Assembly: GCF_009834565.1 (NCBI RefSeq)
Contig: NZ_CP019428.1
Span: 2,480,001 to 2,544,000 of the forward strand
Direction: 5' to 3'
DNA from: Pseudomonas sp. R76
Lineage (GTDB): Bacteria > Pseudomonadota > Gammaproteobacteria > Pseudomonadales > Pseudomonadaceae
DNA length: 64,000 bases
Shown here: piece after piece, positions 47,495 to 48,473 of the stretch
Numbering within the stretch: position 1 is the first letter of the stretch
Layout of the letters: each line of letters begins with the position of its first letter
Made by a program: the position numbers and the translations under genes
The notes under the pieces: generated by a model
What the model saw: only the letters and a program-made list of their open reading frames with translations
What the model was told of the DNA's origin: nothing
Databases searched by the model: none

Positions 47495-47737
47495 TTACGC
47501 TTGCATGCACTCCAATGATCGATCGACCATCACACTGGCCATGTCCACAAGGTGCAATACCGAAATCACCAATGTGCGTGAGTCACCTTCCAATTGATCA
47601 ATCGCCGCCTGCGCCGTAACGGCGGCACAACGCAGCACGCTGCTGGCGTGGGCCAGGGCGTCTTCGAAGCTGAGCTCTTGGGTGGTGGTGAAGAAGGGCG
47701 GTTCTGATGCGGGTGGTGCGGGGACAAGTTTGTCCAT
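47495..47737 (-). CDS. DUF6124 (formerly DUF3077) protein
   Basis: An 80-residue protein of the DUF6124/DUF3077 family, common in Pseudomonas. It has a proline-rich start and a helical body: FEDALAHASSVLRCAAVTAQAAIDQLEGDSRTLVISVLHLVDMASVMVDRSLECM. Its function is unknown. ATG 47737 is preceded by the Shine-Dalgarno GATTAGGAG. The roughly 230-nt leader is highly structured and contains a loop complementary to that site, so translation is likely controlled by RNA structure. Confidence 0.88.
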   Translation of the reverse strand: MDKLVPAPPASEPPFFTTTQELSFEDALAHASSVLRCAAVTAQAAIDQLEGDSRTLVISVLHLVDMASVMVDRSLECMQA

Positions 47738-47870
47738 GGTTCAACTCCTAATCAAGCGTTAGAGAGTCAACACCTTCGCTACTAAACGGGGTGGCGACCG
47801 TACGCAGGTTAGTAGACCGGCGATTAGGAAACCGGTGCACCCGAAGGTGCCCTACGCACGGCCACCATAA
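47738..47870 (-). promoter_or_regulatory. Structured leader RNA with anti-Shine-Dalgarno loop (candidate riboregulator)
   Basis: In the minus strand the stem GGTGGC + CGTGCGTAG (47866-47852) pairs with CTGCGTACG + GCCACC (47807-47790). It encloses GCACC-UUCG-GGUGC (47850-47837) and ACCGG-loop-CCGGU (47836-47816). The loop UUUCCUAAUCG carries CCUAAUC (47828-47822), an exact complement of GAUUAGG in the Shine-Dalgarno (47753-47747). CUACUAA (47815-47809) follows and is complementary to UUAGUAG at 47785-47779. Together they predict two mutually exclusive folds, one hiding the ribosome-binding site. Confidence 0.7.
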
Positions 47871-47880
47871 CGCAGGGCCG

Positions 47881-47968
47881 AAAAAAAGCGCCTTGCAGAA
47901 GGGGGCGCCTTGCGCCTAATCACATCGGTGGGCTACTAAACCCGGTCACTGAATTGGCAGTGACCGGC
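47881..47968 (-). ncRNA. Upstream hairpin and terminator-like stem; candidate terminated small RNA or attenuator
   Basis: Beginning near 47968 the minus strand reads CCGGTCACTG/CAGTGACCGG (perfect 10-bp hairpin, 47967-47942), then GGG-TTTAGTAG-CCC, GATTAGG (47921-47915), and the terminator-like stem AAG-CGCC/GGCGCTT with a 7-T run ending at 47881. A weak promoter TTGCGC-17 nt-TAGTCT lies just upstream (about 47998-47970). Transcription could end here as a short RNA of about 85-90 nt or be read through into the DUF6124 leader. Confidence 0.5.
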
Positions 47969-48128
47969 GAAGACTAGCCATGCGAATTGAGCGGCGCAAG
48001 CGGTTGGGATTCTCTCGGAAACGTCCTGCAAGTTAAAGGGAAATGTCGCTGATCAGACTGTTCCTACACTTGCCAAACCTGCCCGATTCTGGGAAAACCC
48101 CAGCCTTTAAGCATTCAACGAGACCCAC

Positions 48129-48473
48129 ATGAGCAACGACGAACTGCAGATCACCGACACTCGCCCGGGCACCGGCAAAGCCGTGGTCAAGGGCGCGTTG
48201 ATCACCACTCAATACACCGGCACCCTGGAAGACGGCACGGTGTTCGATTCGTCCTGGGAGCGCGGCAAGCCGTTCCAGTGTGTGATCGGCACCGGGCGGG
48301 TGATCAAGGGCTGGGACCAGGGGTTGATGGGCATGCAGGTCGGCGGCGTACGCACGCTGTTTGTACCGGCGCACCTGGCCTACGGCGAGCGCTCGATGGG
48401 CGCGCATATCAAGCCCAACAGCAACTTGCGTTTTGAGATCGAGTTGCTGGAAGTGCTGACGCGGGATGATTGA
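48129..48473 (+). CDS. FKBP-type peptidyl-prolyl isomerase
   Basis: A 114-residue stand-alone FKBP. The fold's landmarks are QYTGTLEDGTVFDSSWERGKPFQCVIGTGRVIKGWDQGLMGMQVGGVRTLFVPAHLAYGERSMG and the final FEIELLEV. The binding-pocket residues (Tyr, Phe, Asp, Trp) are in place. No signal peptide, so cytoplasmic. ATG at 48129 is the family start. The downstream GNAT gene begins 12 bp later, so they are probably co-transcribed. Confidence 0.93.
   Translation: MSNDELQITDTRPGTGKAVVKGALITTQYTGTLEDGTVFDSSWERGKPFQCVIGTGRVIKGWDQGLMGMQVGGVRTLFVPAHLAYGERSMGAHIKPNSNLRFEIELLEVLTRDD

Follow-up and report, generated by a model that had tools for sequence, protein, structure and literature searches.

What kind of RNA precedes the DUF6124 gene on the minus strand of this DNA, and what does it do to the gene that follows? 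The window, by which we mean the whole 64-kb stretch of Pseudomonas sp. R76 DNA that was analysed, had been given a first-pass annotation in which the leader was described as a three-way junction with a loop complementary to its own Shine-Dalgarno sequence, matching no recognised riboswitch class. The Rfam search proposed there gave two families above their cut-offs, RF01695 (C4 antisense RNA) and, 5' of it, RF03163 (c4-a1b1), which are the sole Rfam matches at gathering score in the window. No riboswitch family is matched there, as had been stated, but the element does belong to a class known to Rfam, and a reading as a ligand riboswitch was dropped, no family other than C4 and c4-a1b1 having reached its cut-off there. 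Judged by its sequence, the three-way junction is a C4 antisense RNA and not a new class of leader. Our main reading, to which we assign a probability of roughly 0.88, is that a chromosomal C4 antisense RNA switch controls the DUF6124 gene of the window.

The C4 element of the DUF6124 leader

The existence of a structured regulatory RNA on the minus strand was borne out by the predicted fold as well as by the Rfam matches (Table 1). The minimum-energy fold of the C4 match consists of a 17-bp closing stem, a UUCG-capped hairpin of 5 bp and a second hairpin of 6 bp with a 9-nt loop. All three elements had been recognised before, the capped hairpin correctly; the closing stem had been read as 15 bp with an internal loop and the second loop as 11 nt, and both sizes are revised here. 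The fold has a free energy of -47.3 kcal/mol (z = -5.65) and none of 200 shuffled sequences was equally stable; the whole 243-nt leader is unusually stable too (z = -4.41).

Two short strands of the C4 RNA are exactly complementary to sites further down the leader, as had been noted for both: CCUAAUC in the loop of the second hairpin, equal to the b' element of C4, matches GAUUAGG in the ribosome-binding site (b2), and CUACUAA, equal to a', matches UUAGUAG (a2). A second set of the same target letters, a1 and b1, lies 5' of C4 and had been overlooked. The complements had been taken to mean mutually exclusive folds; they are real, but together with the upstream copy they read as antisense-target pairs. 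This leader structure is not a product of chance, because two Rfam models score above curated cut-offs and because the complementarity recurs, in different letters, at most other C4 copies of the genome. Hexamers similar to the putative promoter elements TTGCGC and TAGTCT were likewise seen at many other copies (by eye, uncounted) and at the orthologues. The neighbouring genes, both on the opposite strand, encode an isomerase of the FKBP type (113.9 bits) and a transglycosylase (256.3 bits), and therefore nothing directly beside the window C4 points to a prophage. Among named proteins the closest comes from Pseudomonas, at 90% to one of P. antarctica.

Table 1. Features of the DUF6124 leader, listed in the direction of transcription (window positions)
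Feature	Position	Strand	Remarks
-35-like hexamer TTGCGC of the inferred leader promoter	47994..47999	-	17-nt spacing to TAGTCT
-10-like hexamer TAGTCT (inferred)	47971..47976	-	at start of RF03163 match
c4-a1b1 (RF03163): 5' hairpin and a1-presenting hairpin	47925..47977	-	52.3 bits, cut-off 46.7
5' hairpin CCGGTCACTG...CAGTGACCGG	47942..47967	-	
a1 UUAGUAG, complement of a', within small hairpin	47933..47939	-	
b1 GAUUAGG, complement of b'	47915..47921	-	
Potential short hairpin GGCGC-AAG-GCGCC	47904..47916	-	GG overlaps b1; 3' arm common to the terminator-like hairpin
Intrinsic-terminator-like hairpin followed by T7, in the b1-C4 interval	47881..47911	-	
C4 antisense RNA (RF01695), full match	47787..47872	-	79.5 bits, cut-off 45; fold given in the text
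Predicted mature 77-nt C4, GGUGG...GCCACC	47790..47866	-	modelled on the P1 C4 annotation
C4 hairpin P2, UUCG cap	47837..47850	-	
b' recognition loop CCUAAUC, hairpin P3	47822..47828	-	
a' recognition strand CUACUAA, in the junction	47809..47815	-	
a2 target site UUAGUAG	47779..47785	-	exact 7-nt match to a', -6.5 kcal/mol
b2 target site GAUUAGG, overlaps Shine-Dalgarno	47747..47753	-	exact 8-nt match GAUUAGGA; b' duplex -11.6 kcal/mol
Target gene, 80-aa DUF6124 protein (PF19619)	47495..47737	-	52.7 bits, cut-off 27

Compensated changes and self-specificity

We fetched 30 DUF6124 loci from the genus, seven of which (L044-L050, the window's own included) share the FKBP gene within a 3.2-kb locus and carry C4 without exception. 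Three versions of a' occur among them, CUACUAA (L044, L047), CUACCAA (L045, L046, L048, L050) and CUGCUAA (L049), and a1 and a2 change accordingly. In L049 the core of b' also differs, reading CCUAGUC instead of CCUAAUC, with GACUAG at b2 and GACUAGG at b1. Loss of the complementarity between loop and Shine-Dalgarno sequence in homologues had been named as an outcome that would speak against a regulatory leader; all six positional orthologues retain the pairing through compensated changes, with two minor defects, one G-U pair at b2 of L045 and one edge mismatch at a1 of L047. We regard this three-way compensation as our best evidence; it indicates from sequence comparison that the pairing of a' and b' with their target sites is under selection.

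The window genome as a whole contains 37 RF01695 matches (36 above cut-off), 33 c4-a1b1 matches (12 above cut-off) and 24 DUF6124 matches (23 above cut-off). All 37 b' loops are distinct, and the a' heptamers fall into 20 types. We measured specificity by summing the a' and b' duplex energies of each C4 RNA against every target leader. With start codons set by hand for seven copies, that of C13 one base early and those of C33, C35 and C37 arbitrary, the RNA's own target ranked first for 31 of the 37 RNAs, a count that includes C37 with its arbitrarily set target stretch, and for 30 of 34 when C33, C35 and C37 were excluded for want of a proper target. The six RNAs for which another target came first were C03, C08, C10, C31, C33 and C35. 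Seen from the other side, 28 of the 37 targets ranked their own RNA first. The mean pairing energy was -21.4 kcal/mol for own pairs against -12.8 kcal/mol for other pairs, and none of 10000 permutations reached the observed mean.

The two recognition elements contribute unequally to this preference. The b' element alone placed the own target first in 22 of 37 cases and a' alone in just 9, the latter because a' types are common to several copies. Since groups of copies share their a' types, a' resembles an address for a group and b' one for an individual copy, as far as the letters tell. Exact matches of at least 7 nt to a2 were found for 34/37 own and 70/1332 other combinations, and to b2 for 22/37 and 34/1332, respectively. 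At the upstream sites, exact matches were found for 35/37 own and 79/1332 other combinations (a1) and for 24/37 and 26/1332 (b1); in the energy ranking self-preference was weaker there, the own leader coming first in 21 of 37 cases. At the level of sequence, then, most of the approximately 37 C4s match their own downstream gene.

Several copies depart from the simple arrangement or share further features. Three tandem C4 matches precede a single DUF6124 gene at 2201331-2201786 of the genome, and the outer two (C33 and C37) have no cognate site and are relic-like. At L035 (genome positions 5556800-5561000) the arrangement is broken, about 1.4 kb separating the C4 (C35) from its DUF6124 gene, and the DUF6124 genes of L037 and L038 have a c4-a1b1 match below cut-off and no C4 at an E value of 0.1. 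C11 and C36 (at 114031 and 114924) are neighbouring C4s whose downstream proteins, that of C11 being of the antirepressor type, are near-identical and whose recognition loops differ. Around ten copies (C02, C03, C04, C05, C09, C10, C12, C14, C20 and C29) have, by eye, a common stretch like GCAGGACGTTTCCTAGACAATCC before the promoter, which could be where a regulator acts or could belong to a duplicated unit.

Distribution, phage relatives and target proteins

C4 is widespread in the genus, being present in 32 of 36 genomes with 0 to 42 copies each, and at least 20 copies in 15 of them. Elsewhere in the order, 4 of 21 genomes have it, and a class-wide sample of 274 genomes, searched with stricter filters, gave 18 with C4, one of them the window's own. 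DUF6124 occurs in 28 of the 57 relatives and DUF3077 in 26, all of them within this genus, and the copy numbers of C4 and DUF6124 are correlated across the 36 genus genomes (Spearman 0.83, relatedness ignored). In four genomes, 124 of 157 C4s, with tandem copies counted singly, have a DUF6124 or DUF3077 gene within 900 nt downstream. Conversely, a C4 lies within 900 nt upstream of 19 of the 24 DUF6124 matches in the window genome and of 110 of 128 in the four genomes. Random placement in the window genome gave a mean of 0.07. The leader had been proposed as a regulatory RNA common to the family, should DUF6124 genes share it; the association is wide but does not extend to every gene, and C4 is absent from a branch adjacent to PrrF, an iron-regulated sRNA. 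Among the 30 genus loci, at gathering scores, 14 have C4, 15 lie beside PrrF, one has neither and none has both. The PrrF-adjacent branch without C4 comprises L052, L053, L056-L060, L062-L064, L066 and L068-L071; a PrrF-adjacent DUF6124 gene without C4 also occurs in the window's own genome (4252556-4252738; L039:1013-1162).

Beyond the genus we fetched 26 C4 loci, of which 4 were too short; of the remaining 22, 19 have an a2 match of at least 6 nt and 16 a b2 match of at least 7 nt, in a count for which fixed-position loop windows misread some loops. The genes downstream of these C4s are varied, some of them antirepressor-like by eye. The leader DNA of the window also matches seven Pseudomonas phage records, four of which were inspected. 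In PAJU2 the C4 precedes a gene encoding a Bro-N domain, in PAShipCat1 and vB_Pae_CF74b a gene annotated as antirepressor, and in the DVM-2008 phage record a divergent DUF6124 gene that lies near the record end, so that it may belong to a host flank. At the protein level, the window DUF6124 protein gave no tblastn match among phage or plasmid records at 1e-5, a threshold that misses divergent members such as the DUF6124 gene of DVM-2008, which was recovered through the leader DNA. A DUF3077 protein gave no phage match at 1e-3, and it does match PHROG families. The window's a2-b2 pattern had no exact match in a viral contig collection, a weak test with a single exact pattern. The tie between C4 and phage antirepressor modules suggests that C4 in these chromosomes is a domesticated phage control device.

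The AlphaFold model of the window DUF6124 protein shows a loose N-terminus followed by a two-helix hairpin (mean pLDDT 84.4, pTM 0.62). Neither the model (Foldseek, best E = 0.78) nor the sequence (best E = 0.11) had a significant match in the PDB, and neither of the two proteins tried was recognised by PADLOC. By hhalign, DUF3077 and DUF6124 are related (probability 99.6%). Pfam was run on ten downstream proteins that lacked a DUF6124 match (for C16, on the first 95 of 172 residues) and identified DUF3077 after C05, C06 and C24 and Bro-N after C11 and C16; nothing scored above cut-off for the proteins of C01, C07 (second ORF), C15 and C32. The protein after C03 barely reaches the DUF6124 cut-off (27.2 bits against 27). 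We also considered the proteins after C01, C18, C19, C15, C17 and C32 as distant DUF6124 members, which was not supported (hhalign probability 3.7%). A relationship of DUF6124 to the Icd protein of phage P1 was rejected, as there is no profile similarity between the two; P1 Icd itself has a sub-threshold Pfam match only and fits the phage family PHROG 1426, which the window DUF6124 protein does not match. A short ORF follows b2 at C06, C07, C13 and C21 and shares 4 nt with the ORF after it (for C13 by frame reading), an arrangement that resembles icd/ant1 of P1.

The searched literature yielded no treatment of C4 in Pseudomonas chromosomes, although PMC2864571, the available part of which lists C4 in Proteobacteria and phages, may hold an earlier listing in its supplement. 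We found no mention of DUF6124 in the literature searched; DUF3077 is mentioned in the accessible portion of PMC9630843. Within the same searched literature, parts of papers included, we found no description of the target type, copy number or self-specificity of these C4s. Through the linkage to C4, DUF6124 and DUF3077, both uncharacterised families, gain a regulatory context that the searched papers did not supply. With tens of loop variants of a single antisense fold per genome, one cell would suffice to study how loops and targets match, how far copies cross-talk and how new specificities arise.

Mechanism, rival explanations and known systems

If P1 is taken as a guide, the three-way junction is most likely excised from the transcript as an RNA of its own that acts on target sites, rather than being a ligand-type switching leader. 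A single putative promoter would give a transcript in the order a1/b1, C4, a2/b2 and DUF6124, from which C4 would be released, presumably by RNase P as in P1. The a' strand of the free RNA would then pair with a2 as an anchor and the b' loop with b2. Covering of b2 by b' would block translation of DUF6124, because b2 overlaps the Shine-Dalgarno sequence. Self-cognate translational silencing of small proteins is accordingly the most likely function of the C4 copies as we read their sequences.

The upstream sites could serve in one of two ways. They may be a second C4 site at which pairing promotes termination at the leader terminator, or they may act as a decoy: a terminated short RNA would then soak up C4 and so allow translation of the gene, much as short IsrK activates its mRNA. 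By a lenient criterion applied to the 115 nt before C4, a terminator-like hairpin is present in 17 of the 37 copies, compared with 2.55 on average and never more than 5 when sequences were dinucleotide-shuffled in 20 rounds. As 20 of the 37 copies are without one, attenuation cannot be general. A second short hairpin motif of the GGCGC-AAG-GCGCC type occurs in 12 of the 37 copies (regular expression). In the window the terminator is predicted whether the fold is left unconstrained or b1, alone or together with a1, is blocked; since it is present before any site is blocked, the calculation does not point to C4 binding as its cause. C4-dependent attenuation in the window leader is possible.

Extended to the genus, it is tempting to speculate that a phage immunity device has been domesticated into tens of largely insulated switches per genome, each silencing its own DUF6124, DUF3077 or other small protein, with group-wise a' and copy-specific b' elements limiting cross-talk and a1/b1 decoy RNA flipping single copies on. 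We offer this wider picture tentatively and would sooner bet against it than for it. If it is true, each cell would carry a collection of genes that can be locked one by one, perhaps as weapons against phages or as a source of cell-to-cell variation.

Other explanations can be set against C4 as a released antisense RNA. The C4 fold might stay in the mRNA as a cis-acting switch whose loops pair with the Shine-Dalgarno sequence of the same molecule. Such intramolecular pairing is physically possible, C4 and the gene share one predicted transcript and a' and a2 are separated by just 23 nt in the window leader, but the upstream a1/b1 copy, the P1-like 77-nt body starting with GGU and the membership in an antisense family fit a released RNA, as does the read coverage of C4-like RNAs in Acinetobacter, which appear to be processed to the body (PMC5320573, in its available text); we consider a cis-acting switch highly improbable. 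Chromosomal C4s might alternatively be mainly anti-phage, silencing the antirepressor genes of infecting phages, with the linked small genes secondary. In P1, C4 prevents superinfection (the same portion of PMC5320573), and the phage records described above place C4 before Bro-N or annotated antirepressor genes in three phages and before DUF6124 in DVM-2008. Against this, the own downstream gene is the best fit for most C4 RNAs, and neither the exact a2-b2 pattern, weak as that test is, nor the window DUF6124 protein at 1e-5 had a phage counterpart, the divergent DUF6124 of DVM-2008 notwithstanding. A mainly anti-phage role seems very doubtful to us.

A module resembling type I toxin-antitoxin systems, with DUF6124 or DUF3077 as toxin and C4 as RNA antitoxin, strikes us as unlikely. 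Type I modules are found in a multicopy arrangement that the C4 copies resemble, and a typical type I toxin is a small membrane peptide. The predicted two-helix hairpin of DUF6124 would be unlike such toxins, there is no detectable similarity to P1 Icd and the two proteins tried gave no PADLOC match; yet P1 C4 does silence icd, a gene whose product is annotated as inhibiting cell division (accessible part of PMC8198154). Release of C4 and its action on the two target sites of its own gene remains our preferred reading.

The closest known system is the c4-icd-ant operon of phage P1, for which we used record NC_005856 (C4 at 48343-48419, 77 nt, with a1, b1, a2, b2 and the icd start annotated); of P1 and P7, P1 alone was compared. 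Under the same Rfam models, P1 scores 68.8 bits for C4 and 51.0 bits for c4-a1b1. Window and P1 share the fold, the a' and b' elements and the order a1-b1-C4-a2-b2-start. With the b sites of P1 annotated one base longer than ours, the respective distances in the window and in P1 are 77 and 77 nt for the C4 body (starting GGU), 4 and 3 nt from C4 to a2, 25 and 22 nt from a2 to b2 and 9 and 10 nt from b2 to the start; the upstream spacing is less alike, with 11 and 7 nt from a1 to b1 and 48 and 66 nt from b1 to C4. The C4 RNA is released by RNase P and its b' partly blocks the ribosome-binding site, as described in the consulted portion of PMC5320573. The genes that follow differ, being icd and the antirepressor in P1 and in the window DUF6124, which has no similarity to Icd. 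Unlike C4 of P1 and P7, the window locus is chromosomal, between FKBP and transglycosylase genes, and tens of copies occur in many genomes of the genus.

Two further phage systems share parts of this logic. IsrK/anrP of prophage Gifsy-1 also has a leader RNA with a terminator, a read-through mRNA and an antirepressor downstream (PMC4825925, as far as its available text goes). There, the short form of IsrK acts on its own long read-through mRNA and activates translation, whereas the equivalent a1/b1 RNA is putative here. Three leaders of this type in Pseudomonas phages and the DUF6124 leader of L051 are hit by the Rfam isrK model (RF01394), which has no match at gathering score in the window. 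The CI immunity RNA of phage P4, which the same part of PMC4825925 describes as processed, as flanked by complementary sites, seqA upstream and seqC downstream, and as acting on termination, is likened to the window C4 in mechanism and not by sequence. Among chromosomal RNAs, the Group 1 sRNAs of Acinetobacter baumannii are likewise multicopy and C4-like, with 21 related sequences in one genome, an a' loop that varies and indications of processing (PMC5320573, in the part available). No cognate downstream gene is assigned to them in that part, whereas most of the C4 copies described here have one that fits their loops.
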